From Paramacrobiotus metropolitanus (taxonomy: Eukaryota > Tardigrada > Eutardigrada > Parachela > Macrobiotidae): DNA of 64,000 bases. The stretch lies in assembly GCF_019649055.1 (NCBI RefSeq), contig NW_026570293.1:124001-188000 (forward strand), written 5' to 3'. Positions 149 through 38,557 of this stretch are shown piece after piece (positions within the stretch are counted from its first letter, which is position 1; each line of letters begins with the position of its first letter). Below the pieces are notes generated by a model. That model worked only from the letters and a program-made list of their open reading frames with translations, did no database searches and was not told the origin of the DNA. The position numbers and the translations under genes are program-made.

Positions 149-1401
149 TCAGTTAGCCCCAAATAAATGACGCTGCACAGCGTCCCTGGTCTTTGTATGA
201 TTACGCTGCTGTTCCTCTGTATCGACCGGTGCGTCCTTGATGCGCAAACGGCCGAACGGCTCAACTACCGACGTATGCAGTGCTCTCTCTTGGGGCGTGA
301 GGAGTGGGGCATTCGGCATCAGCGGCGTCGACGTCGACGCTGCGCTTGCAACCGGTGCGGACTCAGTTCTCATTATCCGGGGCGACGCTTGTAGTGATTT
401 GGGCGTTGATGACGCTGCCCTGAACAATGGAGGGGTGCCCTTTGATGTGGAGGCCTTCGGTGCCACGGTATCGGCGCGACTGGTACCCTGGCCGCTGCCG
501 GCTCCACTGGCTTCTGCCTCCCGGCGTCCGCTGGTGCTCTGGATCGTCTGCGGCAAATTCCTTAGCGCACGTGCAACTGCGTCGCAGTCGTCATCCGTAT
601 AACGGCTAATGTGTTTCAGAGGTGCGGCCACCACCACCCCTCTCGTGTACAACTTCTCCGCATCAAATTGACCATACCGATACAAAGGGACCAGGACCAG
701 ATTGGGACGGTCCTCGTTAAGCTTTAACAAAAGCGCTTGGGTAAAAGCGTGCCACGGTTGCTCGTCAGCATTGCGCGCATTAGTATCCTTCTCACTGCGT
801 GTCAGCGCGGCATTTAGCATCAAGCAGCCCGCTTCGGCCAGCGGTCGCAAATTAAAATGCTTGGAAATTCTTGTCCCGCCAAGTCTGTCCTGCTCGATGC
901 AGTTGCAGGACACGAAAGTGTCATTCTGTCCTCCATGATTGCCCCACGCCGAATGGAGAATGCGGTATAAATTTTTGGCAGCCGGAACGCCAAATATCTT
1001 GTCTTTGTCTGATTTATCGCCGGTCGGTTTGGGGTTTGGCTGAAAAATATGCCCGTAAGACTCTGTCCACGTACATCCGCCGGCAAATCCTGTGCTCTTG
1101 GCTCTGGGATGGCTTGGCTTTAATGGCTCCATCATAATGAAAATTGCCGTAATACTTTCGTACGGACAATGTGTCCACTGAAACATTGTGTCCCAGCCTG
1201 GACTGGTGTCATTATTATTTTCCATTGCCCTTGCCCATTTTTCATGGCCATGGGCTTGTACGTTTTATGGAGATACTTCATGATGGCTTGGAATTCTGTT
1301 GCGATTCCCTTGGCACTGTTCGGAGCCCACATCCAGCTCCATGATTCATGGACCGTTGCTTTCACCTGGGCGATAAATTCCTCCTCGGATAACTGAGCCA
1401 T
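149..1401 (-). CDS. UDG-fold-like protein, copy 1 (single-base frameshift)
   Basis: The coding sequence starts with an ATG at 1401 and reads about 60 residues; a shift of one base in the TTTT run at 1218-1221 then moves it into a 358-residue frame ending at 149. The core follows the order of family-1 uracil-DNA glycosylase. MFQWT then IFIMMEPL lies where that family has its GQDPYH loop. GVPAAKNLYRIL matches the PPSLxNIYKEL helix, and GCLMLNAALT followed by an Asn and WHAFT matches LLLNxxLT...NSH...W..F. The catalytic Asp loop and the HPSPL loop are not conserved, so glycosylase activity is doubtful. The last ~120 residues are Ser/Ala/Pro/Thr-rich and probably disordered. The frameshift means the gene either uses the internal ATG at about 1225, is a recent pseudogene, or reflects a sequence error. 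The UDG relation is inferred from motif order only. Confidence 0.6.
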
Positions 1402-2399
1402 TGGCAGAATTTAACACATATATTAAGCACTTAATGCTATTCTGTACCTGATAGCGAAGCTGCGGGTGGTGATAATGAACTTAAATTTATATCTGCCACA
1501 AAAAAAATGTGCATGCAAAAAGCAAATCCCGGTAAAATTAGTATGGCTACGAGCCCACTGAAACCAGACAATTAGATGCGCGATGCGGTGCCGGCGATTG
1601 CTCATAATATACGCTCGCGAAGAGTTTTTGAACATCCGTCCGCCGGCAGGCTGTTGTCACCCGGAAATGCGCATTCATGAATCCCCAGAATGACTGTAAT
1701 ATTACTCGTATTACGTCAGCTTTTGCCGGCCTCCAACGCCGTCGCTCAACTGCGCCGTTCCGCTGATGCAGTATCTGTACACGAGGTGAAGTTATGCGTC
1801 ATACAGGTCATACGTGGCCGGAGGGACTGTTGAAGTCTGCTACCGAATCCGTTTTGTACAACGTTTTGCTAGTAATGCACTAACTGTGTGCGCGTTATTT
1901 CCGGTCGGCCGTGCCTGAATTGTATTAGCGCCACACAGGCACGATGTACGGCGTAACGGCTGCAATTACTGCGAACATGCTGCCTGCTAGTGTAGAAATT
2001 AAAACTTTTCCAGTAGAACCGGAAACCTCGCCGGAAGTTATTTGACTATGTTCTCTGTATGCTGCCAGTAGTTGCTGTAAACTCTTTGCACTGATTTTCT
2101 GCTATATACAGTATACAGGTGATGCAGCAAAACCGGCATGATATTGTAATAGACGTTATAATTATAATTACCTTAATACCTAGTATAACATACCGTGTAT
2201 AATAACCAATAAGCACTCTTACTCAAATTTTATTCAGACTGGTGGTACAAAAGTCTTAATTTTTTTTCTCTCACAGTAATTATATACTGATTGTAAAGCC
2301 TCAGCCGACAGTAGAAATAGGCGGCCTTTATTTATGCATGCCGCCGATTTGTTGCTAAAGTGCACAAATTACGGTTCTGATTAGCCGGGTCGTTGGTAT
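1402..2399. other. No gene seen
   Basis: About 1 kb upstream of the first UDG-like copy. No reading frame here resembles a known protein or any other family in the window. It should hold the promoter of that copy, but no clear core element is visible. Confidence 0.5.
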
Positions 2400-2765
2400 T
2401 AAAGATGATAAATGTTGTCTAAGCGGTTCACGATGTGTGACTAGTGACTACCTTCTCTGCAAGCTGGCCCAGCTTGCCATGAACGCAGCGTAACTAGGCA
2501 CTGAGACATATTATCGGAAGCTACCCATTCTATTTCTAAACCTGATTTTACTTTTGTTTCTTCTACCGTTCGTACGGAACGACGTAATAAATAAAGCCTG
2601 CAATTTGGCCGCACAGTAAACCGGTGTTTTTCGATTCTGGTACATAACCGTAATCACAGCTGCTTCGTGGCCCCTTTCCTTTTCCAAACTGAACAGTCGT
2701 TTGCTCCCTGGATGCGCTGAGTAAACAATTCCAGTTGAGATGATTTAAGAATATCGTTTGAGTAC
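2400..2765 (+). repeat. Dispersed repeat R1, copy A
   Basis: This stretch is clearly similar to 38800-39095 and, over a shorter span, to 31830-32032. Shared blocks include ATTATCGG, CCGTTCGTACGG, TTTGGCCGCACAGTAAAC, CGATTCTGG and GAACAGTCGTTTGCTCC. It has no open frame, terminal inverted repeats or LTR signature. The three copies lie at the 3' side of genes, which fits a short non-coding mobile repeat or shared 3' sequence carried along with duplications. Confidence 0.7.
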
Positions 2766-3330
2766 TGATGCGGCCACCGTCGTAGTCCCCGGTGTTGACG
2801 CTGTCCTGAACAGTCCAAGCGTGACCTTTGATGTGCTCGCCCTCGATGTCCCCATTATGTCGGCTGTGCCTTTCCCACTCTGTCCGGCGGCCCCTGACCC
2901 ACTCGTTTCTCCCTCCCGGGACCGGCCGGTCTTCTTAATCGTTTACTGTCGGTCAAATATCGCACGTGCCGCTTTACAGCAGTCATCGGCGTCATAACAG
3001 CCGAGACGCTTAGAATGAGGTGTTTGGACAGCCACGCCACTCGTTCATATTTGTGCCCTTATCAAACACTGGGGACTTATATAACGGGATAAAAATCCAA
3101 TTGAGACGCTCCTCCTAATAATTACGTAATAGCGTTCGGGTAAAAGCTCGCCCCTCGGGTTCTTCGCCAATGCATCGCCTTCGAATTTCCACTATGTTTC
3201 AGTGCAATGTTTAGCAGCATCCTTTGTCAACTTCAGCAGATCAAAGTTCTTTGACAAGGGTGTTCCTTCCAGTCTGTTCTTCTCGATAGAGTCGCAAAGC
3301 TGAAAGGTACCCCTTCCGTCCCACTGCTCA
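2758..3330 (-). pseudogene. UDG-fold-like pseudogene, copy 2
   Basis: On the minus strand this reads fragments matching copy 1: CDSIEKNRLEGTPLSKNFDL (copy 1: CNCIEQDRLGGTRISKHFNL), a decayed version of the alanine/leucine strand that follows, and then the Ser/Thr/Gly-rich tail (copy 1 has GTSRADTV and ASTSKGTPPLFR). In-frame stops and frame changes interrupt it, and the N-terminal half is missing. It is closer to copy 1 than to the copy at 13985-15289, so it looks like a local duplicate that later decayed. Confidence 0.7.
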
Positions 3331-3669
3331 CGGTTGCACAAGCACCATGTCAACAACTTTTTTGCTGTTGAAAATAGAGTTATACTATATAAAACTTACA
3401 AAATTTTTGTATTTTTTACGGGGAAAAATCTCACGGAATTCATGGTTTTGGGAACTGAGACACAAAACTTTTCTACCCAATTTCAATTTACATACACAAA
3501 TGTTTGTGAAGAGGTATCACTTTTTAAAACAATTTTGTTGTATCCAGTAGCAGTTGAAATTGTCTTTCAAACGTCGTTAGCGGTACGACGAGTGGCGAAA
3601 CGAACGATAACAGCAGACGGCCATTTTGTTCAGCCGCCCGGTAACAGAATGCTAGCGGCGCAGTAGTCT

Positions 3670-4140
3670 AGCGGCGCGCGGCCGGATGTTTTAGAGGCGA
3701 TAGGGATGGGCTCCAAATGTAGCTGGGTTGGTGACTGGTGTGGTTTTTGATAACGATAAATTGCAGGCGGGTTGGCATGTCTGCCAGCAAGGCTAACAAG
3801 AAACCGACATGGTCGGAACTCTGAAGGAACTGCAGCACACAAGGCTGATGGTGAGAGTGACCCCTTTGCAGCAGTAATATCGCTGGGGGTACAGCCTTGG
3901 TACAGCTAACAATTGTCAGGTACCCTGAAGGTACTAGTACCATAACAATTGTCAAGTTTTGAAGGAATTAACTGTTATAAATTAACTGGTTAAAGAAGTC
4001 GGAAAGAGGGTTGAATTACAAACAGGCGAGATTCGCAGCCATGAGTTTTTAAAGCAGAACATTTGTTTAGCTATTCAAAGAGGAAATGCCGCTTCTGTTA
4101 TTGGTACTGTGGAAAATGTTGTTTTGTTTAAGTGTAACTG
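3670..4140 (+). pseudogene. Pseudogene of an unrecognised small gene family
   Basis: Two pieces of one family occur here. From 3777 the frame MSASKANKKPTWSEL matches the ORF at 10736 (MPASQVNKKLTWSER) but meets a stop straight after. About 240 bases further on, the frame containing EFLKQNICLAIQRGNAASV ends in a stop at about 4140; it matches C-terminal peptides at 9572-9813 (minus strand) and 50690-50778. DNA similarity to 10670-10810 starts about 90 bases upstream of the ATG. I do not recognise the parent protein. The gene structure of the parent is inferred from the order of the pieces here. Confidence 0.55.
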
Positions 4141-4778
4141 AATCATAATATTGTTATCGCTTGGTTGAAATTTGGAAAAAAAATCTAAAAAAAATTAACT
4201 GTAGCTTACCGGTTAATAGCTGTACCACAGTTACCGGACACCGGTCGCTATAACATTTTCTTACGTACATGGTTTTAAACTTGTCTACCTCCTCAGCTTG
4301 CTTTACCATCAGATCAATTAATTAGGGAGCAGGGAAGCTCTCTGATGTGCTACCAGGTATTGCTTGTCCCTCGCCAAGGCCAGCATGTCACACAGAACAG
4401 GATACAAAATTCGACCCATTATCATTCGCTACCGAACCGAGTAAATGGGCAGTGTATCTCAGGCCTTAGGGTATGGTGCACAGGACTGGCCTTCAAAGAA
4501 AATTAACGTCTTAATTGAATAGTTAAATAAGACAAGCCGTGTGCAAACAACAGTAGCGAAAGCATTCCAAATACACGGTTGCGTTATTCCGGTATTTCTA
4601 GAATCTTTGGTAATGTAGCAAACCGCAGCGTGTGTAAAATATAAAAACCTACTTTTGCGTATATACCGTTAACTGCATTACTACAATTATTATATCAACT
4701 TTCTATAGCAACGAAGCATCAGCGAAAAACTTTCAATTTTGCCTGCCTTGTTCGCCTCAGTATCCTTTTGCTTGCACG
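4141..4778 (+). other. 5' flank of the SIAE-like gene
   Basis: About 640 bases without a credible gene. It should contain the promoter and 5' untranslated region of the gene starting at 4779. An AT-rich run with TAAAATATAAAAAC lies about 140 bases upstream of the ATG, but it is not a convincing TATA box. Confidence 0.4.
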
Positions 4779-7700
4779 ATGAATGGTTTTAATGCTTGTG
4801 ATTATCAGTTCTTTATTCTGTGTACCACAACACTGTTGTATGTGGTTTCGGTCGGCACGGTTCTTTTAAGGACTAATGGCGACGCGGGGACCTTCGCTGC
4901 AGATCACACTTTCAGACTGGCCAATTATTTTCAAGACAGGATGGTTCTGGAGGCAGACATCCCTGGGTCGGTGTTGTGGGGGTATGGAAAGCCAGGTGCC
5001 GAAGTTGAAATTGAACTGCTGGGTGATATTCTACTGACCGGCATCAATGGTAAGCGAACTGGGCAACCCCGCAACCCGTGACATACGTTTCGGGCTTTCC
5101 TGTACTACGTGCGCAAAATGATTATTAAATTTTTCTTTCTGTAGTTTCATATACGGAGGATCTAACTGAGGCTTTCTCCTATAAACATAACGCAAAACGA
5201 TAATTAAAATTCTTTTGTGTATTTCTAACACGACGTACCTCACTGAGGCCGAGCACCGAGCATTGTGAGTTAATGACTAGTGAGACCAATATATAAATGC
5301 AGTTTTATAAAGCCGATTTCTGTCATCGCACTAAGAATCTAAGATCGAGTACTTACTCTGTATTTTGCGGTTGCTACTTGAACGTCAAAACAATGTGCAA
5401 GGAAGGAAGAAGCAACAAAACAAACGATCATGAAAAGAGACAGATCTAGAAGAAATGCAAAAGTATTGCAGGCCATTCTGTCTTAGTTTTCCCAATTTTT
5501 TTTAAACATCGTGGCCTAATGTGGACATTAATTTTGTGGTTAGGGAAAGTCAATCTACCCGAAACACCTATCTGTGCAGCGGCTCCCATCGGGATGCCGG
5601 ACATCGCACATGTTTTATCTAACTTCGAGCAGAGCACTTGTCTCCAGTGTGGCTTTTCCCGTATTTGCGCACTACGTTCCGTAGTGAAGAGTGGTCGGGC
5701 GGAAATATGTGGTGCTATGGCGGCTCCGCGATGAAACAATTTTTGTCATATATTGTTTTTGAACGAGCAATAATAGTACTTCGAATGCTGCCTTATATGG
5801 ACTCCCCTTATATTACTCTCCCTTATCTAGGTTCCCGGCTTGTTAGCAATACCCGTCAAATTAAATTTATCGGATTTATAGCAGAACCCTTTTCTACTTC
5901 TTTCAATCGGATTTACAAGTGAGCACACCAAAGAATTCCGAAATTTCACATCCGAATTATATTTATATATATTATCTATACAATAATATTTTTCATTAAT
6001 TTCAACCGGATTTGTCAATGAACAAACTGAAAAATGCTGAAATTTCATGTCACATTATTTTTTCATGGGGTTCTTAGTGCATTTTTACGGGCGACGTTTA
6101 GAAAGATTTTGAATTTAGAAAGATTTTGAATCTGTCGTTGATGCAACCTGAGCACTTTGAAACAAACTAAATGCTACAAAAGTACTGGCAAAATAAGTAT
6201 TTTAAATAAATCAAAAATTTCAGTCAGGCATAACTCTGATAACAGCTGCGAAAGTGTGAGTAATAACGTAACCGCCCATGTAGAGGGTTGCTCATATTGC
6301 TCGGGAGCCCAGATAAGGGAGAGTAATATAAGGGCCCATATAAGGCAGCATTCGAAGTATGGTAGTTATGGACAACAGTGAACACCGCTCAGTAAATCCA
6401 ATCAAATGAAGAACTTATCCCAATTTAAACTTATTCTTACTGGTAGTTAATAACTAGTTATGTATTTAACAGTATGCTATGTTCGATTTCCACAACAATG
6501 GTATCAGTAATGACTCGTATACAGATGAAGGGCTCTGGAAACAATCTTTGTGGGCTGGTATTCCGACCGGACCGTGGGACATCGACGTGTATCAGAGCGA
6601 ACGAGGCAACTACACTGGTCATGTCGTATTGCGCGATGTTTATTTTGGAGACGTATTTCTGTGCGTCGGTGAGGCCAACATGGCGTTTCCGGTTGCGAAG
6701 GTAAGACATCCTGAACTCCATACTACGGCGCGTCACGCCGCGCTGTTTAATCAGTGGCGGTGTTAATCACATAACAAGCATTTCGCTGGCAGGTGGCTTG
6801 CTGCACGCCAGATATTTTAATGAGAATAACTGTATGTAACTGCTTGGCGGAAGGTGGATAGAAAATGGTCGGTGCAGTAAGGAACAATCTAACTGCGGAG
6901 GCAGTTAGGCATTGCAATAGACGTAGCGTAGTGGCCATCGTTCAAACGCTAACTTCGCGTTAATATCGCTCTACCTGTTCCTTTACATGCTCAATTTGGC
7001 GACAGGTTTGTGCGAGTTCACCAAACGGTGAAAGAATAATATCACAATAGCATGAGCTCATTGTCCTCTGTATTTTGTATAAAAACAGACAGTCGCTGTT
7101 CGTAGAGAGTACGTAGCGTAAGGGTACGTAACCAAACTGTAGGCATTTGACATTTAGAAGTTACCGGAAGATATGCGATACCCTATACTACAATAGTACC
7201 TGTTTTTTTACTCAGTGGACTCTGAGCAGGTGCGTGCTTTCAGGTGCTACATCGCACGCATCTTATATACGCGACAAGATTAATACAGTAGTGTTAGTGT
7301 CAGTACTTATGCTAAGTAATGAAGCGCTACGGGTAGTTAATGAATCTCGAAGTAATTAACGTATGTACTGACCAGATGTTCAATGCTTCGGAAGAACTGG
7401 CGGCATCCTCGGAATTCCCCCTTATCCGACTAATGAGAATCTCACCAGATTCGTCCTTCAGCGCGCTGCCGGAACCACGCATCCTTCAGAACTGGACTAT
7501 AGCGACTCCGGATTCGTTAAAAGACTTTTCTGCACTGTGCTGGGCGACAGGCCGGCGCGTGTCTGAAGATATTCGCAGCCGATTCGGTACGTTTTAGGAG
7601 AAATCTCTACTAAAACCGAAACGATTCTCGACTACTTCACTTAAATAGGTCAAAAGGCTCCCATTGGCTTGATTGGGGCTTATCGAGACGCAGCCTCTCC

Positions 7701-9357
7701 CATTCGCGGCTGGATTCCTCCAAACAGTATTGGGCATTGTACAGGAACTATGCAGCAGCCGGGAACGGATTCCGTGCTGTGGAACGCCATGATTGCCCCG
7801 ATAAAAACACTGCGTTTCACCAGCGTTATCTGGTATCAGGGCGAATCGGATGCCGCCCTGGATGCCGACACCTACGGCTGTCTGTTCAAGGCCATGGTGG
7901 AGGGATGGAGGGGCAATTTCTTCCGGGGTATCGCGCTTCCCTTTGCGGCGGTTTTTCTGACTACTGCTGTCATGCAGCGTTGATTCATTATTATTCCTAT
8001 TTTTCTACTGATTCTGATTGCTGTTTTTATACCATACCGTCGCGCCTGATCCCTTTTTCAATTTTTATGTTTCGTAAAGTATTGTGTATATTACTTTGGT
8101 TGTATGTTTTGGGTTTCTTAACAGAGTTTTTTGGTGTTGGACACCAGAATTTTTTGGTGTTGGACACCAGAATTTTTTGGTGTTGGACACCAGAATTTTT
8201 TGGTGTTGGACACCAGAATTTTTTGGTGTTGGACACCAGAATTCTTTGGCATTGTGCAGCTGGGTACGAGGAATTCTGAAGACGTACCGGGCGCCACCGC
8301 TCAGATACGGTGGGAACAGACGGCCGAGTATGGACAGGTGCCGAATGAAGCTCTGATACTTGTCTTCATGGCCTCAGCGATGGATCTGGCGGACCCCGAG
8401 TCACCGTTTGGCTCGTAAGACGACTGTAGTGTCCCGTAAATGTTCACGCACGTGAGCTTTTCTACTGAAGCCTTAGTAATTTTACTGATCATTCATAACG
8501 TAGCTTTAACTTGTAAAATGTATGCGACAGTTAGTAATGCTTATCTAAGTCGTAAGACGGAGTTTACTGACACAACGTACCGTGACCTTCCGTTATCCAA
8601 TAGACCTACTTGTTGAACATATGAGAACCTAGGCGCTGCGTGACCTTCAATAATACTGTACACAAGCTTACATTGCCGGTTGTGTTTGTATCAGGGAGCT
8701 GCCACGCTACAAAGAAGAGATCGCGCAGCGCTTGCTGGCCGGTATTGTGTCGGTCTTGTACTACCGACACATCCCATTTCAAGGACCTTTCCCGAAACGC
8801 ATACAACTGGGCCCGGATAATGCCTCTCTGTGTATCGAATATGACCAGCAGATAAATTTCACACCGAACGCTGCAAGCAATTTTGAGGTACCAGATTTCC
8901 TTGACCGGCGTTTTCTCCATTGTATACTGTACATGTAAATTATGATAACTCGGTCACGTTAATTTTTGATGAACCCATACGCACATACACTGTATTTATT
9001 GATTCGTTTTCTGCACTTGAATTGCATCATGCAGTAATACGCAGCTAAATTAATTTTTTGTGGCAGATTTGTTGCGATACGCCGATATTCCGCACTGATA
9101 ACTGGAAAGACTGCCGAATTTGGCATAACACCACCAGTCGGCCTAGCCTGTCCGCGGGAAATACAATTGTCGTCTCGACGCCGTGTGCCGGCAACGCATC
9201 GGCCAGTTTTGTGCAGTACGCCTGGGCAGTGACCCCATGTGGATACAAGAATTGTCAAGTCTACGCCACGGATTATCTGGGCGACCCCAAAGGACTGCCG
9301 GGACCACCGTTCGTTCTGCCAACCAACTGGACACGCGACGACTACAACCTAGTCTGA
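4779..9357 (+). CDS. SIAE-like: Sialate O-acetylesterase-like protein, catalytic Ser and His replaced
   Basis: Seven exons join in frame: 4779-5049, 6525-6700, 7376-7586, 7649-7927, 8240-8414, 8695-8887 and 9067-9357. All have GT/AG borders and matching phases, giving about 531 residues (human SIAE is about 523). An N-terminal hydrophobic stretch suggests a secretory or lysosomal signal. Family landmarks appear in order: FRLANYFQDRMVL, VLWGYGKPGAEV, FGDVFLC, SVLWNAMIAPI, VIWYQGESDA, FFGIVQL, AMDL..PESPFGS and a C-terminal YAW..TPCGYKNC. SIAE removes 9-O-acetyl groups from sialic acid. Two active-site positions differ: the nucleophile motif GQSNM reads GEANM, and the WHQTADFG histidine motif reads WEQTAEYG. 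The product is therefore probably not a normal esterase. The starts of exons 2 and 5 are the least certain borders. Confidence 0.9.
8125..8239 (+). repeat. Five-unit 23-bp minisatellite ending at a splice acceptor
   Basis: There are five near-perfect 23-base units, each a T run followed by GGTGTTGGACACCAG. Only the first unit differs, in its first two bases. Each unit contains the inverted repeat GGTGT/ACACC around TGG. The array fills the end of intron 4 of the SIAE-like gene. The CAG of the last unit is the best-fitting acceptor for exon 5, so every unit carries a copy of a possible 3' splice site. Confidence 0.9.
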
Positions 9358-9571
9358 GCAGTAATTGTGTTGATGTCAAAGAGGCTGACGCCTAGCGCGG
9401 GCGGTCTGGGGCAATTTTTTGTACAGTACATTACAGTGCAGTACATTTTCTGTACGGGTGCAGTACACTGGCCATCGCGCGAGAAACTTGTCTATATCAA
9501 CTTTCTAGTTGTGTGCAGGATATTTTATTCTTAAACATACTTTCTTACACAGTCTTAAGAGACTTCACTGA

Positions 9572-9813
9572 TTATACAGCATCAACTGACTCATGCGGTC
9601 TAATCCCAAAGAACATTTGATCTAAATTCGCACCCATCGGTGCCGTTCCCATGACAGATGCCGCATTGCCTCGTTGGATTTTGATGCTGATCCGCTGGCG
9701 CAGGAATTCTGTGGCCCGCTTTTCGCCGGTTTCCTGTTGAATCTTCTGTCCACCTACTGTCATCATGCGGGTTGCTTCCGGTCCAGGCGGTCCAACCGTC
9801 GAAGCCCAAGGCT
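9572..9813 (-). CDS. C-terminal exon of an unrecognised protein
   Basis: On the minus strand a TTTTCAG acceptor is followed at 9813 by an open frame to a stop at 9572. It carries PWASTVGPPGPEATRMM, then GEKRATEFLRQRISIKIQ and RGNAASVMGTAPMG. The central peptide recurs in fragments at about 4055-4140 and 50690-50778, so this is a conserved C-terminus and probably the functional member. It looks like an amphipathic helix with a short tail. The family is not recognised. Upstream exons would lie at higher coordinates, possibly in 10031-10579. Confidence 0.5.
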
Positions 9814-10030
9814 CTGAAAAGGTAGTTTTGCAAGATATTATAGTATTAAACCTTAATCATTTCGGCTTGTACCCGGTAAGCTAGCCTAAACCAAATTTTT
9901 CTACTCACGGGCGAAAATACGGGGCGTATAATTATGACGGAGTCTGACAGAAAACGAAAGAGCCTGAGAAGCTGAGCTGTATCTTTACATGCAGTTCAGT
10001 AAGCTTTAAGGTCGGTATGAAGCACTAAGA

Positions 10031-10579
10031 TTACCCGGGTAGGTGCAGTACTTGTACAGCAAGTGCAGCGCAGTGAGCGCACATACTGGTTACAACCACC
10101 CTTATGCTGTGCGTGAATGCACGCGACGTATCAGAATTGACAGAAGCTGGCCTTAAAGCGCTTTGAATTACACGCGGAAGAGTGCGTTGATGGCTGATGC
10201 CGTACATCGCCAGTCGGCTCAGCGTGGAGACATCCCCATGTCGCAAGTCCACATCTTCCCACGCGGGCACTGCCCCATATTCATCGAAGCCGCTGAACTT
10301 ACACCCATAACAGATGCAGATCCGGTTTTTCCATATGGCGCCCGTACCCAGTGGGAATAAATTACACACTTACAGGAAACAATAGTTGCGAATAGCCCGC
10401 AAATCCCCAGAATAGGACAGAGTGCGCATCCAGCGCGCATGCAAAGCCGTGACCTCTGCTAGTACGTTCCCCGTGGCGGGTGGGAAGTTGTCATTGAGCG
10501 CGTGCACGAAGCGCGTTCGGCCATCGCTGCAGCAGAGGACCACCCGCTGAATGATGATTTGAAGTTTGGAGTTGGTCAA
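10031..10579 (-). CDS. Possible exons of the same minus-strand gene (uncertain)
   Basis: Two protein-like stretches sit on the minus strand. The first, about 10570-10372, reads RVVLCCSDGRTRFVHALNDN and LRAIRNYC and ends at a good GTAAGTG donor. The second, about 10330-10160, contains FSGFDEYGAVPAWEDVDLRH. The phases of the obvious donor and acceptor do not join them in these frames, so either the exon borders or one frame is wrong. The family is not recognised. They lie just upstream, on the same strand, of the exon at 9572-9813 and may belong to it. Confidence 0.3.
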
Positions 10580-10735
10580 CGTTCAGTTCGCGCGACTCAA
10601 ACGTGGGATGCAGTATCAGTTCCTGCTAGTGCGCACGCAGCTGGGGTGTTTCAGAGGCGAGAACAGTGAGCTACAAATGCAGTTCGGTTGGGCCTGTTAT
10701 GGTTTTTGTAAACGATACATGGTAGGCGGGTTGAC

Positions 10736-10990
10736 ATGCCGGCCAGCCAGGTTAACAAGAAACTGACATGGTCGGAGCGCGGGAGGAACTGCAGCACGGT
10801 CAGGCTGAATGCAGCCGCCGAGATGCATTGGCTCAGGAGAGTGACCGCTTTGCAGCACTTTTTGCTGTCTGGATGTGAGCTGCCAACAGCTTTCAAAAGA
10901 GATGCTGACGTGGTCAGCCATGCGGGGATGGTCCGCATGGCGGACCAAGTCAGCACCACGGTGGAGTCTGTAGTGAACAGACTTAACTGA
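10736..10990 (+). CDS. Unrecognised 84-residue ORF
   Basis: This open frame starts MPASQVNKKLTWSER and continues with a helix-rich stretch containing AAAEMHWLRRVTALQHFLLS. The same N-terminus and upstream DNA occur, broken by a stop, at 3777, which suggests that a real gene was duplicated. In that pseudogene the C-terminal peptide RGNAASV follows about 280 bases later, so a further exon may be missing here. No signal peptide or membrane segment is visible and the function is unknown. Confidence 0.35.
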   Translation: MPASQVNKKLTWSERGRNCSTVRLNAAAEMHWLRRVTALQHFLLSGCELPTAFKRDADVVSHAGMVRMADQVSTTVESVVNRLN

Positions 10991-11739
10991 ATGCGTGCAA
11001 CTGTGCTTTGGTAACATCATAACAATGCGCCATTATTAAAGTCGTGATGTTTCAATGCTAATGGAAAATGGTCACTCCGCTTACTCGTATCACCGATAAC
11101 TATTTTTTATTCAATCATAGCGGCTCAGTTGTACTGCGTCTCCGGCGCATGCAAATAAGGCAGTCACCTACAGTTTGTATTTAATGTATTGTCTAAGATA
11201 AAGTAACATAGCAAGATGAATAAAGTCACGATGAATAAAATAAAAGCAGTAGTAAGCGTAGATAAATATGGAGTAGGATTGAACGCATGGTTAAACGTAA
11301 AAGAACACAACATCGGAATGACAAAGTAATAAAAAACAGAGCTCATGCCTCAGATCCAACGAATTCGCTGCATAAGAAACAATCGAATGAAACAAAAACA
11401 GGTAAAGCGAAAGGGAGAAAGCAGCTCCTCCTGATTCCTTTTTCCGTGTTTGTTAAACGTACTGAGTAAAGTCAATTAAATAAAATGAAAAGAACTACGT
11501 GTAAGCCTACACTTTCAGTCAGAAATTCTGGACACTCGGCGCATTATGTACGAATATAGGATCTCGTGCGCATGATTAATTTAATGTCATCAACGTCCGC
11601 TTTAAATTGATAAAGCGCGGCCAATAAACCGGTTCCAAATTTCTTTGGTTTTTATATAATTATCGAGTTGTCGAGATACGTTGTCTATGTGAGTACTGGC
11701 CAGTGAATCCGCTAAATCGGCGACAACTTGATTAGGGCT
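10991..11739. other. AT-rich intergenic DNA, no gene seen
   Basis: Only short, low-complexity frames (Lys/Asn-rich on one strand, Phe/Ile-rich on the other) occur here. No repeat shared with the rest of the window was noticed. Confidence 0.45.
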
Positions 11740-12428
11740 CGCGTCAACCGTACCATACATGTTTCCTTGTGACGTGCTAGGGTAGGTTTGTCCGGGACAC
11801 GAGAGAAAGTCGTCGAGTCCGGATTTCCCTTACTGTCGCTGTCACCAGTTGTGCCAGCACTTTCCACGTGCGTGGTAGTTTCTTTTTCCTGTCTTTCTTT
11901 GTTTTCGAGGATACAAGAAGGAGACGCCTCCAGCGGGTCGGCATTACCTTCGTTGCTATCAAGACTCCTCGCGACCGAAGAAAATTTCTCCTGTGGGACT
12001 AAAATGGGCGTGGCCTTCTGGAGTTGACCCTGTAGCTCCAGTATCGAACGCGCGAATTACTTCATATCGTCGCTGTTATATAAACCTACATGTCCATAAC
12101 GTCCTTTAACCAACTTCCCGCTTGTATAGTACAACGACGCATCTAATTCACAACTTCCATAGAACTGGAAAAGGATCAAATTGGGATGATCACGACTGAG
12201 CCGCGTCAGTAACGCCTCGTAAACGCTTCCCACAGTATTTTCTCACAGTTGTTCTAATCATCACATCGCGTCAACGCAACATTTAGCAGAAAAATTTCAC
12301 CTGTCGCTAACGGCGTTGGATGAGGATCAAACTCCTCTCCAAATGCCAGTTTCAGTGACGCACTGGAACCGTCCAGATGGATGCACTCACATAGTGTCGC
12401 GTCGATATTTTGACTTGCGTTCCTTCTC
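11740..12428 (-). pseudogene. UDG-fold-like pseudogene, copy 3 (C-terminal part)
   Basis: Minus-strand frames match the middle and end of copies 1 and 4: ATLCECIHLDG, FGEEFDPHPTPLATGEIFLL, NVALTRCDD, then WEAF and HPNLILFQFYG after frame changes, followed by an acidic/Ser-rich tail (LDSNEGNADPLEASPS). Stops after TRCDD and later breaks disable it. The N-terminal part does not continue on this strand; it is found in the opposite orientation from 12429. Confidence 0.75.
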
Positions 12429-12665
12429 ATGGAGCCATTAAGACCAAGCAGGTATAATTGTGAGAGCACTGGATTCGCTCTGGGATGCAAGAAAAATAGA
12501 AATGGTTTTGCCTATCCAGGAAACCTCGTCCATATCTTTCAGTCAGGCAAGTATGATCTTGATAAAGGCGCAAAGTTAGGTGTGCCGACCGTCAAGAATG
12601 TAGTTCGGATTCTTCGTTCGGCATGGCACCACAATTCACGGTGGGAGGGGGTGCGTTCTGGTTGA
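12429..12665 (+). pseudogene. Inverted N-terminal part of UDG-fold-like copy 3
   Basis: This open plus-strand stretch reads MEPLRPSRYNCESTGFALGC, then HIFQSGKY, GVPTVKNVVRILRSAW and HHNSRW. It is colinear with MEPLKPS...STGFAGGC...HIFQ...GVPAAKNLYRILHSAW in copy 1. The adjoining remainder of the gene is on the minus strand, so this segment was inverted in place. One breakpoint is at about 12425 and the other just beyond 12665. Confidence 0.75.
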
Positions 12666-12999
12666 ATCGGCTACACTGACAGTTCCACCGCGTCGGTAAC
12701 TGTGACCTTTCTCCCATTTGTTAACAGATCATAAAGTTGAGAGCTTACATATGGGGAAATTGTTACTGTCCATATACGAACCTGCGCATGCGGGTGCAAA
12801 AATTGTATAAAAATATTTAATTATTTTTTCGAAATTCTACTCGCTCCATCAGAATGTGTTTGTAATGCCTGAACAAAATACAGTATACCGTGGATACACT
12901 TAGCAGATTGAGGCTGATATTAGTGCGTGAGAATTTCGTCACCTCCGTAGTGCTTGCATCTGGAAGCCGAAAAACCCAAGTCAATCCCAAGCAGTGCTT

Positions 13000-13281
13000 G
13001 ATTAATTGAGAAGGCGCGCCGCGACCGAAACAAATGTCAGAAGAAAAGGAGGCTATCGCGAAGAAGAAGCACGCCAGAAGGAGGAGCGGCAGAAACATGC
13101 TTTGAAAGCCAAGACGGAGATGTACCGGACGGAAGCCGAACAACAGGCCGAGAAGATCCCCAAGGAGGTGGAGAAGCAGCACGGGCGGGATGTCGGCTTC
13201 CGTCAGGATTTAGTCAGTGAGACCATCGCGGCGCAGAAGAAGCAGGTCGATCTGGAGGCGCAGCTGGCCAAAAAACTGTGA
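13000..13281 (+). pseudogene. CAHS (tardigrade desiccation-tolerance protein) pseudogene
   Basis: The best frame (13006-13281) reads [32 protein letters not shown] and [16 protein letters not shown]. This is the charged coiled-coil core of tardigrade CAHS proteins, where the typical pattern is [31 protein letters not shown]...KREVDLEAKMAKREL. Upstream pieces of the same core lie in other frames (EKARRD near 13006; [10 protein letters not shown] about 30 bases later), so frameshifts have occurred. A stop follows AKKL, and the usual N-terminal and C-terminal parts are absent. Intact CAHS proteins have around 230 residues and form gels or filaments during drying. This copy is a relic. Confidence 0.85.
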
Positions 13282-13984
13282 AAAGGCGTGGGTCAGACGG
13301 CACGATGCGCTTTGAAGAAGCAAAATGACCCGTAAAATGGAATTGCACTGATACGTATTCTGCATGTATTACTGTAATCTTTCTGACTATTTTCCTTTCT
13401 GATAACTTTGTGTGCAGTAATAAATCAACTAACATGAGTTCGTTAGCAAACTTTGGTTCAAATTCCGACACGTTTCCTGTAGCAGATGTTCCAAGGTAAT
13501 ATTACAGGTTACTAGTGCTGTTGGTGGTATACTGCTGTCCAATTCACGCTAGATTGACCTGCGAGTCGTATTCATCATAATAAACCATAAAATAAATTTA
13601 TAATATTATAATTACAGTAAACCATAGTATTTTATAACATAGTACTTTTCATGGTGATCACCACGCATTGAACAATGTTATGCACGAGCATTATTTCACA
13701 AAATTTATCAACTTCTCCTCCGTTCAGCTAACTGAAAGCAAAGTATGACTTAATGCCGCATCTATAACACAGTGCCATAAATTAATGATGATGTTGATAA
13801 ATATGCCCAGTTCAGTGCATCATTTGTATTTGGCAGGTGGAAGGCAGTTTCGACACGGCAATATAGTACGGTGGAATCGGAAGTGAACCACCCAACTCAA
13901 CCGGGTGTGAGCATATCTGCACTCGATGTACATACATGTATTCCTACAAACATAATAACGCGTATTATCAACAATAAACTTTAA
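13282..13984. other. Intergenic, no gene seen
   Basis: About 700 AT-rich bases between the CAHS relic and the 3' end of the UDG-like gene on the opposite strand. It includes TTTAT/ATAAA-rich blocks that could hold the poly(A) site of the minus-strand gene. Nothing else was recognised. Confidence 0.4.
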
Positions 13985-15289
13985 TTATGCTGACACAACC
14001 ATGCTAAGCAAAAATTTACTTTTTTCATGGATCGTCGTCGTCGTCGCCGTCGTTAAAAAGGTCATAGCTTCTTTCATCTTGTGGTAATTAACGAAAGTCG
14101 CTCCCTCTGGTGATGACTCCCGGATTTTCTCTAGCTGATTTTCAATAAGTTGACCTACAAATTCGGATTTTTCCATGGCCAAGTTTCCGCTGTCGTCGTC
14201 ATCGTCATCTGAGACGTCTGTAGCGTCCGAGCAAGAGGCGCTAGATGCGTCAGACTCTTGGTCAGACTCTTGGTCAGACCCATCAGAACTGTCTGTATCA
14301 GAGCGATCATAACCGCGCTCAAATGCACTATCATCATCCGAGCCGTACTTGTTTTCGTAGTTCCAGTCGTCCTGCTTCTTTTGCAAGCGTTGCTGTTCCG
14401 CTTCTTCTTCGTCTTGTCGATCCACTTCTTGCTGCAGGACTGCGGCTGCCAGTTCATCCCACAGCTCCAAAAGTAACCGGACCATAATCTGGATATCGTT
14501 TTTGGTGAAGCGGGACAAATGTTTATTACCGCCCGGGAGCTTGATAACACTCCCGGTTGTATAAAATTCCGACGCGTTGAATTTTTTCCTTCCATGCAAT
14601 TGCACAAGGATTAAATTCGGATACCTCTCGTCTAGGTATTTCAGCAGCGATTTGCCAAAGGCTTCCCACAAATCTCTTTCGCTGTTAGTCTTCTTGTCAC
14701 ATCGTGTTGATGCAATATTTAACAGCAAAGTGCCGCCCTCGGCTAACTCGATTGGATCGAATTTGTCACCAAACTGCAGGTTCATTTCCTTGATGCATTC
14801 GGCATCGCAGATAACAGGATCACTCCTTCTGTCCCAGGAGGCGTTGTGATGTGTTATCGAATGGAAAATTTGGCACAGTTTTCTCACTGTCGGCACTTCA
14901 GCGAGCGCTCCCTTCGAGCCCTGCACCTTGGCTGTCACGCCCGAGGCTAGTCCAAGGCTGACGTAAGTCTTGCATGGCATTAGCGGCTCCATTAGTACAA
15001 AAATGGAGTTTAACTCGTCCAGAGGCGTACAGGTCCAGCGAAACATTACGTCCCATCGGGGACTGATCTCGTTAAATTTCTTCCAAGTGCCGTCCGAAAG
15101 GGGTGTGTACTTTGCGTGTAAATGCTGTAGGATCTCCTCCACGCTGCACTCGGCTTCTACCCCGAACATGATTGCTGTCCATTGTTCATCCGTCACGGTT
15201 TCCTTTACGCGCTCTAGAAACTTTTCATATGACAGCTCATACGTTCCCAGTGCTTCCTTAATTTCTCGCTGGGGATCCTTCATCTGCAA
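13985..15289 (-). CDS. UDG-fold-like protein, copy 4 (intact, acidic C-terminus)
   Basis: A single open exon of 434 residues. After a helical N-terminus, VMFRWTCTPLDELNSIFVLM leads into EPLMPCKTYVSLGLAS, at the place of QVFSWT...VVILGQDPYH...AHGLAFS in family-1 uracil-DNA glycosylases. EVPTVRKLCQIFHS matches the PPSL.NI..EL helix. GGTLLLNIASTR with downstream NSE and WEAF matches GVLLLN..LT...NSH...W..F, and NLILVQLHG matches the LVFLLWG strand. The catalytic Asp is Glu within an unrelated loop, and the HPSPL minor-groove loop is missing (GNKHLSRF). About 100 Asp/Glu/Ser-rich residues follow, then a basic end. Activity on uracil is unlikely; a DNA- or protein-binding role is possible. The family assignment rests on motif order and spacing. 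Confidence 0.75.
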   Translation of the reverse strand: MQMKDPQREIKEALGTYELSYEKFLERVKETVTDEQWTAIMFGVEAECSVEEILQHLHAKYTPLSDGTWKKFNEISPRWDVMFRWTCTPLDELNSIFVLMEPLMPCKTYVSLGLASGVTAKVQGSKGALAEVPTVRKLCQIFHSITHHNASWDRRSDPVICDAECIKEMNLQFGDKFDPIELAEGGTLLLNIASTRCDKKTNSERDLWEAFGKSLLKYLDERYPNLILVQLHGRKKFNASEFYTTGSVIKLPGGNKHLSRFTKNDIQIMVRLLLELWDELAAAVLQQEVDRQDEEEAEQQRLQKKQDDWNYENKYGSDDDSAFERGYDRSDTDSSDGSDQESDQESDASSASCSDATDVSDDDDDDSGNLAMEKSEFVGQLIENQLEKIRESSPEGATFVNYHKMKEAMTFLTTATTTTIHEKSKFLLSMVVSA

Positions 15290-19187: not shown

Positions 19188-21436
19188 TCATTCTTGCCCT
19201 GGCAGCTTCTTCTTGCAGTAGCCCTCGTGGCACACCACCGAGTTGCGAAACGGCAGCGGTACGCGACAAGAGTGGGCTATCGAAAGGTCAGGGAAGAGCA
19301 CGGGATCCTCGCATTCCATACAGTCTCGACTGCTCTGGCATCCTGCATCACAGTTTCTTCGTTGATGTCAGTTTTCTTGGCATGCGGTAATTTATACTTA
19401 TGCGCCGAGGTTTAAATTTATTGAAATATGTGATTAAATAATTTTTTATTAAAATGCCAGTAAAAAATATGCGTAAGAATTATTAAATAATATGCTTGAT
19501 GAAATGCTGGTCTGCATTTTATATTGTTACAGTTACCCGTGTTGATCATTATTAACACATTACTACTCTCTAGTCGCTACCAGCACGTACTAGATCTAAT
19601 ATTAACTAAGAATGACGAAGTGCGTTCACTATTCAGCACTTTTTATAAACAGGTAAGTACATGCATACTTGGTATTCGAGTACATAATTATAAGAATTTC
19701 TCATTGTCATAACAATATATTTCAATAATGACAATCCGCTATTGCAACAACAGTACTAGAGTATTGGGAGTTATTCATTATTAAAAATTTCTGAACATTT
19801 CAAAATGTTTCCAAAGCTGGCCCCGCGCAGCGGGGCCAATATTTCTATAATTTACTAATTCTACGATTTCAAATAATATTATACGAAATATTTGCACAAA
19901 ATAGGCAACATATTTCCACATTCTTAATTTTATTGTTAAATCGAAATTTCATATCTGAAACTCAAAGGGGCGCGCCCTAGCGCTTGTATTGTGTGTAACG
20001 ATAAGAAAATGATAGAAACATTATCATGGAATGGCGTGTAAGAAACTAAGAAGTTAAAATTTACCGTAAATTTACGATTGCACAGTGTCGTTCTACAAAT
20101 ACAATAGCGCAGTTTACTGGCGCTACGCTATTGTAGAGTGGCAGAGTGGCACGGGGCTGCATGGTTTTCGTGAATTATACGAAATTATCGGTCAGTAGGT
20201 ACGTATGTATCGGTACCGACGGTACAGTACGTTATGCATATTATTCGCTGTTGCCGATTGCCGGTGCTCTATTGTATAGGCAGTACAAAGGACAAACTGC
20301 ATGTCGCGCAGTATCTATAACACACTGAAAATTAAATATTCGAAGACATTCATGCTGCTGGCCTACAATAAACATTTCTGTGTAGTGAAAACCAGGTTTA
20401 AACATACAGCCCCTCTTGGCACCTGCCCATCCACCCCTTGGGGGCGATCGCCATAAAATTTCCGTAAGGTTTTTAATGTCAATACTAGATAATATGGGAT
20501 GTACAATGTACGTACTGCGCCAGCATCGTTTGCCCGGCAGCTGCTCCGGTATCTCCACGCAGTGGAAGTCCATGCCGGGGATCGTCAAGCATTCGTCCAG
20601 CGCCTTGCAGGCCAGTGGACCGGTCAGTAGGCACTTGCTATTGGCGCAGTGGTACATCGGCTTGCAGTCGCTGTGCTTCCCGCACATTCCATCTATACAG
20701 CGAATGTCAGCGATACCAAAATTTAATACCAGTAGGCAAAAATTAGCATTTGTTTGCTATCCTTTAATAAGTATCGCAGTACAAGTACAAACCAAGTACC
20801 AAAACAAATGAAGAATGACAGGACAGTGAGGCAAGAAACTAGGGAAACATCATGATGAAAACTTGAAAAGCACAAAAAATGAGACCCAACAATTACAACT
20901 CGTTGGGGGCAAACGCTTACTCCTAAATATAATTCTCCTAATCTCTGGTAAATGCGAAATACATAATATACGTATACGGTTTACAATGTACGGTTTATTA
21001 TCTTTATCATAATTGTACAAGCCCGTCCAACAGCCCTTTGACCGCTGTAAGCGCAGCGCATATAAATCGCGCACAGTAATGCAGATACGTACGTACCCGT
21101 AAATATGTACGTACCCGGTACGTGCGCGTATGCAGCAGTTGGAATTTGCATACAAATTCCAGCTGCTGCATACGCGTACGGATACGCACAGGAGAGATGC
21201 ATAAGCCGATGGTTAGTTGCCGTACCTGTGGACGGGAAATGCGGTGACTCCTTGGGGACGCAGATCTTCCAGGTTTTGTCGCAGCGTGTGCCGACGGGGC
21301 ATTCTTCGATGCGTTCACAGCTCTTGATCTCCTGCGGCATCGCGCTGGTGAAGTAGGCGTGCAGTAAAAAAGACTGCTGCGTCTCCGTTAGCGACGACCA
21401 ATGGTCTTCGTGACCGTTACCGTTGTTGCCGTTACC
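19188..21436 (-). CDS. Secreted cysteine-rich protein, paralog B (5' exon not found)
   Basis: Three exons on the minus strand join with phase-1 introns: about 21436-21226, 20692-20516 and 19342-19188. They encode GNGHEDHWSSLTETQQSFLL, IKSCERIEECPVGTRCDKTW, then MCGKHSDCKPMYHCANSKCL, GMDFHCVEIPEQLPGKRCW, and finally RCQSSRDCMEC and CHEGYCKKKLPGQE before the stop. The repeated C-x(5-6)-C-x(4-5)-C spacing suggests small disulfide-rich domains. The gene at 23578-26164 has the same exons, phases and cysteine spacing. By analogy a signal-peptide exon should lie upstream (above 21436), but I could not identify it. The acceptor at 21436 fits only a phase-0 first exon, so that border is uncertain. The function is unknown, probably extracellular. 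Confidence 0.75.
19818..19838. repeat. GC-rich hairpin
   Basis: TGGCCCCGC and GCGGGGCCA form a perfect 9-bp stem around a GCA loop, inside the AT-rich last intron of the cysteine-rich paralog B. Confidence 0.85.
21125..21176. repeat. Long inverted repeat (23-bp arms)
   Basis: The arms at 21125-21147 and 21154-21176 are complementary at 22 of 23 positions (one G-T pair) around a 6-base GCATAC loop. They lie in an intron of the cysteine-rich paralog B. They could fold as an RNA hairpin or be a small foldback element. Confidence 0.9.
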
Positions 21437-23577: not shown

Positions 23578-26164
<2,587 letters not shown>

Positions 26165-33430: not shown

Positions 33431-33817
33431 TTGAGATCTATGTTAACATCAGTTTTCCTCTGACCTTTCATATTTTTCATCTGAATTTTTTTTGTGTGGT
33501 GGCTCGCCCCAGTACGAGCCCATTACGAATCTATACCATCTTTTCCCAATTTTGCCAACACAAGATTATTACCGCCTGAATACGTTCTGCGGTGTTTAGT
33601 TATTCTACCTAACGCGATATTTCATCGGGATTTCACCAACGCATGATTCTAATTCCATCGCCTGCATATGCTGATCAGAAATTCCATCGTTTTTCTTGAC
33701 CTTTTACTAAATGTACTGAACGTATTTTAGTGAACTGTTATTTAACATTATTACCTTAAAATCAATTGAGAAATTTATACGAATAAATGTGACCTTTCAT
33801 AACATTTGACCATCAAC

Positions 33818-34273
33818 ATGGATGCCAAATCTTTGTCACCGGAGCAATACGTACAAGCAATCCACTGCTACTTAAAATCAACCACACCCAATCCAACGTT
33901 TCAAGATTTATTATCTCTTCTCTTCGACTATCTGCCAGAACAGCTGAAACCAACATTTTTTGCCAATTTGCCTGACTCCATCAACACCTTTGTTCAACAG
34001 CTGACTTTTGAGCTGAAGTCAATCCCACCTAATTCACGACCAAGATTATTCTTTCCTGTTCAACAAATCCATGCTGTAAGCCCAACCCCATATAATTTTA
34101 ATGCGATCAAACTACATGTTCTACCAGACCAAGAATCGCACGTCAACACGTCCCAGAAAACTCCGAAGAAACACCATCGCTTTCACGCACGTTCATGTTA
34201 CAATTGCCGCAAGCCAGGACATGAAGCAGCCACATGTAGGAAGCCTATGAATTTGCCCGTATACAGACATTGA
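33818..34273 (+). CDS. gag: Gag-like protein with CCHC zinc knuckle
   Basis: 151 residues starting MDAKSLSPEQYVQ. A helical N-terminal half (FQDLLSLLFDYLPEQLKPTF, a capsid-like pattern) is followed by a single zinc knuckle, CYNCRKPGHEAATC, near the C-terminus. That matches the C-x2-C-x4-H-x4-C nucleocapsid motif of retroelement Gag. It lies in the interior of the LTR element. Gag would package the element RNA; all pol functions are missing. A stop follows soon after the knuckle and no frame downstream resembles pol. Confidence 0.85.
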   Translation: MDAKSLSPEQYVQAIHCYLKSTTPNPTFQDLLSLLFDYLPEQLKPTFFANLPDSINTFVQQLTFELKSIPPNSRPRLFFPVQQIHAVSPTPYNFNAIKLHVLPDQESHVNTSQKTPKKHHRFHARSCYNCRKPGHEAATCRKPMNLPVYRH

Positions 34274-35689: not shown

Positions 35690-38557
35690 ATGGCGTCCAC
35701 AAATCCTCCTTCCTCGACGGTGCCTGCCGCGAGGCTCAACAGCCGCATCAAACAGACACTGGCCACCGGTGAACTGAGTGATGTGCGATTCTCCGTAGGT
35801 CGGGATTGCGGTCCACAACACGTGCAGGTCTTCCCAGCGCACAAGTAAGTTTAGCATCGAGGGATGCTGTTTTCTTGTTGTAACATTGAACAGAGTTACA
35901 TGTCTTCATATCTGTTTCTTTAACGATCTGCAGGTACATGGTGAGTATCCGCAGCACGGTGTTCCATGCCATGTTCTACGGCAGCGTACCGGAAACAGGC
36001 CCACAGGTCGACATTCCCGACTGCATGCCCGACGCTTTTGCTAATATGCTCAGGTGCGTGAATAAACACTCGCAATTTTGACTGCCTGGTCTGTGCAATT
36101 GGCCGCTTCAAGACGCATTGCTTCTAAATTGCATGAGCGATTTCCATCCTAGTAACCTGTGTTCCTGTGGAAATATTTTTTCTGTCAGAAAATTTTGGGT
36201 TTTTTACGAAAACCTCTAAGCTTAGAATTACACATAACACTTCCGACGCTTGAAGCAGTTGCAACCGCTCGGTGTGGCCGCGTGATGCGAATTTATTCTT
36301 TTAAGTTTTTTTGCAGGAACCATTCCAGGTTGTAAACTAAAAATTAATGGAATTAATTAAAAAATTAAATTAATTAAAAATTAAATGGAATTTAAATTGA
36401 GCGCTTAATTTACGGTAAATAACAATCTATGTACCCTGGTATTCTTGGCGCAGTTTTATGTACACCGAATCCGTGGAGAATCTCGGCATGGAGAATGTCA
36501 TCGTGACCATGCGCTGCGCTGACAAGTACGATTTGCCGCAGCTGACCAGCCAGTGTCTGGATTTTATCGATTCCCAGCTGTGTCCCGATAACTGTCTGAT
36601 CCTGCTAGAGGAGGTACTGATAGAATATCGATAAAAAATTACTTATTTTATCTGCAGCTGCATTTTATAATAATTATTTTGATTTTATGTATCCTGATGA
36701 CAAAATTAATTTATGTTTAATCAGTAATAATTTGATTTCTGGTTTTATTATCATTACGTATTACGTTATTATTCGTTTTACTGTATGTATGTTCTGTTCT
36801 CAATTTTCTTTTATAGTTTTATCCTGTTTCTTTTCTTATTTTTCCATTTTGATAAGGCCAACTAATGCAGCTTGGACGTCTGATTGAGCGCAGACGGTGA
36901 ACGGTTGTTATAATCATAAAATACTTTTAATATTGTATAAAATATTGTAGAATAATAACGGATATATCAAACATTCAAAATAATATGGAATAGTTACTGC
37001 CTAATTGCTGCGTAATTGAATGTACTTAAGTCGCAGCTTTGTTGCAGGCGATTAATGGGCGGCAGGACGGTGTCGTGGAGAAGTGTTTGCAGTTGGTGGA
37101 AGTTGAGAGCGCTGTCATTCTGCAGTCGGAAGAGTTCACGAGCATCGCGCTCGACACATTGAAGTTGATTCTGCAGCGCAACGCCCTGTCCGCGGAAGAA
37201 AACATCATCTACATGGCGGTTGAGAGGTGCCTGGCATTATTATTATTATTATCACGGCACAAGAGCAGACAACCCCAAGGGGACTTCAAGTCTGGTCGAA
37301 CAAGCATTAGCACTAAATTTCTGGAATAGTTATTATTAATGTACTTTTACAATTTTTGGAGACATGAATATCTGAAGTATTATACCGTTAATGTTGCTTA
37401 GATGGGCTGTGGAGGCGTGCAATCAGCAGAATCTGGAATCGACGACGGCAAACCGGCGTGCTGTGCTGGGCGAGGCGTTATTCCTTGTCCGCTTTCCACT
37501 TCTGACCGGCGCGCAACTGGCCGAGGGTCCCGGAAAGGTTGGTCTAGATCTTAAGATTGATTATACTAGTGGTAAAGGGCAATTGCATTTTGGAAACCGA
37601 TGCGCGTCGGGTAACGGAGAAACGCGTAAAAAGTGGTCCATGAGTCAGCGAAAAATTAACAAAAGTAATTTTTACTAATGCTCGACTGTGGTAGGTCTAA
37701 TACCTTTTCAAACAGATTGGTGTTTATTTTAAAAGTTATTTATCGGAGCCGCGGTAAGTGTTTTCGTTCCAGACACATGTAAGTTTTGTAGATCTGTGCA
37801 GGTAAGGCAGGTTGAGTAATTGTTGCGCTTCGACATCGAAGCGCAACGGTCACACGGAAAAGTAAGCTGATAACCCATCCCAGGATTTCGGGTTACCAAT
37901 CAAACCGTTACCTGCTTAAGTGCCATGACGTCACGTTTTTTATCGCGACTGGTGTTTGCGCGCCGCGTAAAGCTTACACAGAGCAATTGACCTGTCCCAG
38001 TGAAACAGTTACCAACTAATTATTGTTTTTTTCTTAGCGGTAATTAACCGGTATTTCTCTTGTGACAGAGCGGCAGTCTCCTTTTGGACAAGGAACTCCT
38101 GAGCATCTTTCTGTATCAGAACGGCGCCGTGACCACACCGCTGCCGTTTCCCATGGAGTACCGCGCGGCGCCGGTCTTGCGCCGGAACCCGACGACATTC
38201 GAGCCCGGTGAGGAAATGTTTGCGCTCAGCGCATCCGGTTACTGGTGGCAGGCGGCCACGATTATCCGTTGGCGCGCGTCGCGCGGCGTCGAAGTGCGGT
38301 GGTGTCATTCGGGGGAGGCCGGCTGTGTGGAGGCCGAGAAGGTGGTGCGAGCGGCGGACATCCTGACGAGCGGACGGACGGTGTACTGCCTGACACCACA
38401 GGGGCCCTCTTGCGATACCTACGTTCGGCCCTATCCCCTGGGCCGGGGGTTGCACCAGGTTCTCTCGCGCGGTCGGGAGGCTTATGCGCCCTTCTCCATG
38501 CTGGCCCTCCACGCGGTGGACGTCGACGCCTGGATGGCCGCACGCGATGTCCGCTGA
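35690..38557 (+). CDS. BTB-BACK protein 2 with C-terminal Tudor/Agenet-like domain
   Basis: Six exons join in frame: 35690-35844, 35934-36053, 36454-36613, 37048-37226, 37402-37537 and 38069-38557, giving 412 residues. Exon sizes and phases match BTB gene 1 except in the last exon. BTB motifs: GELSDVRFSVG, FPAHKYMVSIRSTVFHAMFY and MYTESVENL. BACK-like region: CADKYDLPQLTSQC and VEACNQQNLESTTANRR. The last exon begins like that of gene 1 (SGSLLLDKELLSIFLYQNGA) and then continues with PGEEMFALSASGYWWQAATI, VEVRWCH and VVRAADIL. This resembles a small Tudor/Agenet-type barrel and is shared with BTB gene 3. Such a protein could link a CUL3 ligase to a target with methylated residues, but that is inference. 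Confidence 0.88.
37822..37847. repeat. Perfect 12-bp inverted repeat
   Basis: GTTGCGCTTCGA and TCGAAGCGCAAC flank a CA dinucleotide within intron 5 of BTB gene 2. Confidence 0.95.

Follow-up and report, generated by a model that had tools for sequence, protein, structure and literature searches.

UNG-related, probably non-catalytic paralogues occur in multiple copies in the genome of the tardigrade Paramacrobiotus metropolitanus

Family-1 uracil-DNA glycosylases (UDGs of the UNG type) are recognised here by five motifs, which were defined from the available excerpts of PMC5538708 and of the table in PMC4450493; in the excerpt of the latter, the catalytic Asp and His are described as invariant in all UNGs. 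The vaccinia protein D4 is described as a diverged poxvirus UNG which has a catalysis-independent role in the polymerase processivity factor (PMC4450493; PMC1936997), and in which both catalytic residues, Asp and His, are retained (PMC4450493). We analysed a stretch of 64,000 nucleotides of the genome of P. metropolitanus (positions 124001-188000 of contig NW_026570293.1, here contig C73), referred to as the window, which encodes on its minus strand two long UNG-related proteins, P1 (13985-15283) and P2 (149-1225). We read both as members of a family of UNG-related pseudo-glycosylase paralogues that are probably non-catalytic, a reading to which, judged from the sequences, we give slightly better than an even chance.

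The assembly (169.8 Mb, 533 contigs) was searched with P1, P2, and the related proteins of contigs C94 and C42 as queries. At least 10 family loci on six contigs were recovered, namely four on C73, two in tandem on C42, and one each on C94, C237, C313, and C103, and the multi-copy nature claimed in an earlier note on this DNA thus holds across the genome. P1 and the C94 copy are intact, P2 and one of the C42 copies carry one frame change each, and the six others are decayed or fragmentary. An alignment of P1 with P2 spans 241 positions, 33% of which are identical (E 1e-34). By title and start of abstract, no report of such a UDG-like tardigrade family was found in the open-licence PMC literature, which is no proof of its being unpublished.

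The relation to UNG was observed with several kinds of comparison. A profile of P2, P1, and the C94 protein, run against all PDB sequences with E values up to 10, gave 39 distinct matches, of which 36 are named uracil-DNA glycosylase and three (1eug, 2eug, and 4eug) are named "glycosylase" and are presumably the E. coli UDG. The best match (E 7.4e-7) is 3cxm, which we take to be the Leishmania UDG. Taken alone, P2 matched 19 PDB entries, all of them named UDG (best E 7.9e-5), and the C94 protein matched 16 named UDGs out of 19 entries, the others being again 1eug, 2eug, and 4eug (best E 6.2e-3). Among the NCBIfam models matched, those for uracil-DNA glycosylase account for four out of four in case of P2, five out of five in case of C94, and two out of four in case of P1, all of them scoring well short of the curated cut-offs (at best 27.3 bits against 162 for an ung model). 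Of the single sequences, P2 gave the best match to UNG, with 37% identity over 79 residues of the canonical UNG of the same genome (E 2e-9). Alignment by hhalign of a six-row family alignment to 32 bacterial UNGs plus the host UNG scored 52.7 (E 8.5e-10) in the first run and 57.4 after removal of gappy columns (61.3 against the bacterial rows alone), compared to a maximum of 23.5 for 200 column-shuffled profiles and 14.0 for the reversed profile. On the basis of these PDB, NCBIfam, and hhalign comparisons, we regard the homology of the family to UNG as secure at the level of sequence, with its weight resting on one segment: the significant match is confined to approximately 60 residues comprising the LLLN strand together with the helix and the strand that come after it. 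The UDG-like core described in the earlier note is therefore well above chance, and the profile search of PDB led to UNG-type glycosylases in all 39 matches. In the Pfam search, PF03167 gave no hit for P1, P2, or C94, and just matches below the cut-off were obtained, e.g., HNOB for P1 (E 0.024). The PHROGs search returned phrog_12143, of unknown function, for three of four proteins (E 0.006 to 0.11), phrog_1803 for a C42 fragment (0.063), and phrog_35607 for the P1 tail (1).

Only LLLN is clearly intact among the five family-1 motifs. GQDPYH is intact in none of the seven copies that cover its position: six read xEPxxP, with Glu at the place of the acid, and the decayed C42 copy reads KP, with Lys instead. 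In P1 the remnant of this catalytic loop is MEPLMP (14975-14992, minus strand), with Asp replaced by Glu, and in P2 it is MMEPLKP (1115-1135, minus strand). The Pro-rich loop PPPPS is lost and reduced to VP or less (EVPTV in P1, GVPAA in P2, GNDTA in C94, and GVPTV in C42 and in a wreck of the window), and Phe158 of GLCFSV is found in none of seven copies. The uracil-reading Asn is kept in six of eight copies, as LLLN in P1 (the uracil-specificity strand, 14717-14728, minus strand), C94, and C237, LMLN in P2, LCLN in C42, and FLLN in a wreck near 12 kb of the window; exceptions are a C103 fragment with Asp and a wreck near 2.7 kb of the window, in which the strand is gone. HPSP is absent from all nine copies covering the region. 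Seven of these nine retain a His in their last, shortened loop, the exceptions being C237 with Asn and the 2.7-kb wreck with Arg; in P1 this His belongs to KHLS (14513-14524, minus strand) within the loop that replaces HPSPLS, its register relative to UNG being uncertain. Counted from the TTG at 15289, the three residues of P1 are Glu101, Asn191, and His257. The Gly-Ser loop region reads HGR in P1, YRY in P2, and FGS in C94, likewise with uncertain register, and a long insert precedes LLLN. The earlier statement that the family has no catalytic loops is thus right with respect to the sequences of GQDPYH, the Pro-rich loop, and HPSPL, and too strong in view of the persistence of the Glu, the Asn, and the His.

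The canonical UNG of the genome is located at C20:663962-665704 and contains at least six exons, the boundaries of which were set by eye. GQDPYH, PPPPS, LLLN, and HPSPLS are intact in this gene, and its Gly-Ser loop reads Gly-Arg (WGR). If our own residue count is right, this Arg is the Arg256 that the available excerpt of PMC6797769 describes as tardigrade-specific, and it then lends indirect support to the tardigrade host assumed in the earlier note. A genome devoid of UNG, in which the family would provide the sole UNG genes, was hinted at by PF03167 alone and is ruled out by this multi-exon gene, which was found with TIGR00628. A glycosylase of the TDG/MUG type, which belongs to the same superfamily as the family (PF03167), is encoded at C14:899627-900088 and shows a GFNPG motif and an SSSPRG loop, whereas the family matched UNG models and chains and none of the TDG type. 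The canonical UNG is a possible source of the family and differs from it by its exons and intact motifs. P1 and the C94 gene read open across all five intron places of the canonical UNG domain, and this absence of introns suggests that the family was derived as a retrocopy of the host gene.

According to the reading that we favour, the intronless genes share descent with family-1 UDG and have retained the strand and helix around LLLN. Because the catalytic loops, i.e., the water-activating, the Pro-rich, and the Leu-intercalation loop, have been replaced, UNG-style base flipping and uracil excision were probably lost. The canonical multi-exon UNG presumably keeps repairing, which would free the copies, and a domain of predicted UNG shape may act by binding alone, without cleavage, its ligand being DNA, a base that has been flipped out, or a UNG partner, with the variable tails possibly setting location or partners. 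Glycosylase inactivity, DNA binding, and action as a UDG mimic or inhibitor target, all put forward in the earlier note, are candidate properties.

Several observations weigh against this reading, and part of them concern the homology outside the LLLN segment. P1 alone matches PDB weakly, with UDGs making up two of four matches (best E 2.1), and the C42 pieces alone neither hit an NCBIfam model nor matched the UNG profile significantly. The N-terminal half alone, in the alignment of which the EP of the family is set onto the DP of UNG, scores 18.8, a value attained by nine of 200 shuffles, two of them on the same diagonal. The alignment of the C-terminal part alone departs from the expected diagonal and falls on the FFGxKxFS helix, with one of 200 shuffles scoring as high, which leaves the last loop without a settled register. 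Furthermore, all four intact or once-frame-changed genes keep the Glu, the Asn, and the His together, which a dead enzyme need not do, and each of the five exceptions occurs in a decayed copy. This pattern would fit active glycosylases with altered chemistry and specificity, in which the Glu stands in for Asp145, Asn204 reads the base, the His of the new loop replaces His268, and the loss of Tyr147 and Phe158 makes room in the pocket for thymine or for a modified pyrimidine of larger size. Changes of Tyr147 and Asn204 in human UNG give thymine or cytosine activity. By hand count, the last-loop His of the family lies 25 residues past the residue aligned with the Trp of WG in UNG, compared to 22 residues for the catalytic His of the host UNG. 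Nevertheless, we consider an altered glycosylase, the main rival reading, unlikely, since the Leu-intercalation and Pro-rich loops are gone and the position of the His varies with the method: MAFFT places it in the column of Leu272 and not of His268, hhalign yields a third register, and by eye it also resembles the start of a [KR]HFS helix.

The state of the copies belongs to the same set of objections, as six of ten are decayed and two more are frame-changed. Together with the unconserved tails, this would fit decaying paralogues without present function, left over from a burst of copies of which P1 and the C94 gene are the last still open. We hold such an end stage to be quite unlikely in view of the comparison of C94 with C237, for which the ratio of nonsynonymous to synonymous divergence (dN/dS) is 0.10 over 352 codons (dS 0.55, dN 0.056). 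C237 now carries stops and frame-breaking indels; homopolymer read errors were rejected as their cause, as the indels comprise 1 to 5 bases and lie outside long runs. The coding DNA of the pair is 86.7% identical, compared to 69% for the 3' flank. For C94 and C313, dN/dS amounts to 0.43 over 248 codons, with a badly aligned first half and a value of 0.19 in the second half, and for the C42 tandem pair it is 0.37. Past purifying selection at the protein level is thus observed in the C94/C237 lineage, to which the test applies, P1 having no close sister. P1 and the C94 gene are moreover still open at 33-38% protein identity, a distance at which silent sites are presumably saturated, and the longest ATG frames of the window (432, 358, and 311 codons, the first two being P1 and P2) compare to a maximum of 266 codons across 50 Markov-resampled windows. 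Given that selection has kept at least one lineage, the family proteins probably do something new.

The last objection comes from the phylogeny. A tree with 36 rows groups its three family members in a single clade, the branches of which are very long, and cannot place this clade: a joining to the host UNG is mildly rejected (approximately unbiased test, p 0.027) in the presence of strong long-branch attraction. We treat the tree as uninformative, although an origin in the host finds no support in it. As the genes are also intronless, dispersed, and present in multiple copies, they could be cargo of a mobile element or descend from a gene of a virus or bacterium rather than from a host duplicate, which we regard as very unlikely. 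In a search that omits very common words, the 3' flank of C94 turned up solely beside its gene copies (C237 and C313), and for the 5' flank of P1 the only match was its own position. No inverted repeats were detected bordering either the C94 unit or the C237 unit. A scan of IMG/VR viral contigs for the family gave 99 pattern matches with none confirmed, but these scans are insensitive, since that for the host UNG (five matches) also confirmed none. Due to the apparently low-copy flanks and the lack of inverted repeats at the unit ends, the family spread by duplication and not by an obvious mobile element.

One could also envisage a DNA-base enzyme or reader which the tardigrade lineage derived from UNG. 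The Glu, Asn, and His of its wider, rebuilt pocket would recognise some base that is not uracil, and possibly also release it, and fast-changing tails would direct the individual copies to different targets. We offer this as a speculative idea of rather low probability. If it is true, such a protein might contribute to the DNA-damage tolerance of the lineage.

P1 comprises 432 codons from its ATG in a single open frame and is supported by family matches; the ATG at 15283 is more likely its start than a TTG at 15289. Its C-terminal tail (13988-14449, minus strand) consists of 154 residues and is acidic and rich in Ser, Asp, and Glu. P2 comprises 358 codons encoding the UNG-related core and a basic, Ser/Thr/Pro-rich tail of 133 residues, and its N-terminal segment of approximately 61 residues is located in a separate reading frame (1219-1401, minus strand), the frame change falling within a variable linker. 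An assembly error is possible for the frame changes of both P2 and C42. The earlier note had described two long minus-strand proteins and two wrecks with shared motifs in a given order, all of which were found, except that 149-1401 is not a single frame. The long disordered tail that it ascribed to each protein is present in P1 and P2, whereas that of the C94 protein measures merely 70 residues; the three differ in composition, and disorder is inferred from composition alone. A decayed copy on the minus strand at about 2736-3323 contains several stops, and its LLLN and last-loop His are gone. The wreck near 12 kb (12006-12653) is split into an N-terminal half on the plus strand (12375-12653), which is inverted relative to the other half and in which LLMEPLRP is still readable, and a C-terminal half on the minus strand (12006-12403) with FLLN, GHVG, stops, and one frame change. 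As the halves lie on opposite strands, an inversion breakpoint is situated inside this gene on top of its decay.

Exons resembling a sialate O-acetylesterase (VIWYQGESDA, by eye) are located between UNG-like copies at about 4779-9800 of the window. A tandem 23-bp repeat, TTTGGTGTTGGACACCAGAATTT, each unit of which contains an inverted repeat, occupies 8130-8244 and by eye lies inside this esterase-like gene. A large protein family without Pfam hit over the cut-off is represented at 38084-38557 and 52136-52636 (plus strand; membership in the window assigned by eye) as well as at 5296-5664 of L029 on contig C94 (minus strand). For the latter member, at least 81 matches were obtained across the genome, clustered on C76, C103, C182, C133, C94, C237, and others, and its family co-occurs with UNG-like copies on four of their six contigs (C73, C94, C103, and C237). 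The frame at 33806-34273 (plus strand) ends in a zinc-knuckle-like CCHC motif below the Pfam cut-off and is perhaps a remnant of a retroelement gag gene. Two cysteine-rich frames on the minus strand (20241-20687 and 24673-25209), which are alike by eye and the second of which matches DUF7107 below the cut-off, perhaps belong to a family of small secreted proteins.

As a repair enzyme, UNG is highly conserved, and animal paralogues that have swapped the acid to Glu, lost the flipping loops, and been under purifying selection in at least one lineage, next to an intact UNG, would represent a clear case of the repurposing of a repair enzyme, situated in an animal group that is studied for its DNA-damage tolerance. 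The family resembles UNG significantly in the LLLN strand, the helix with its W..F pattern, and the next strand, and the remaining segments follow in matching order and at roughly matching distances. It differs from UNG by xEPxxP in place of GQDPYH, the lost Pro-rich loop and HPSPL, the insert before LLLN, the variable tails, and the absence of introns. No D4 entry was recognised among the 39 PDB matches of the family. As a system, vaccinia D4 provides a precedent for a catalysis-independent UNG fold, with the difference that neither the catalytic Asp nor the catalytic His has been lost from D4, whereas the tardigrade family does not keep the catalytic Asp.

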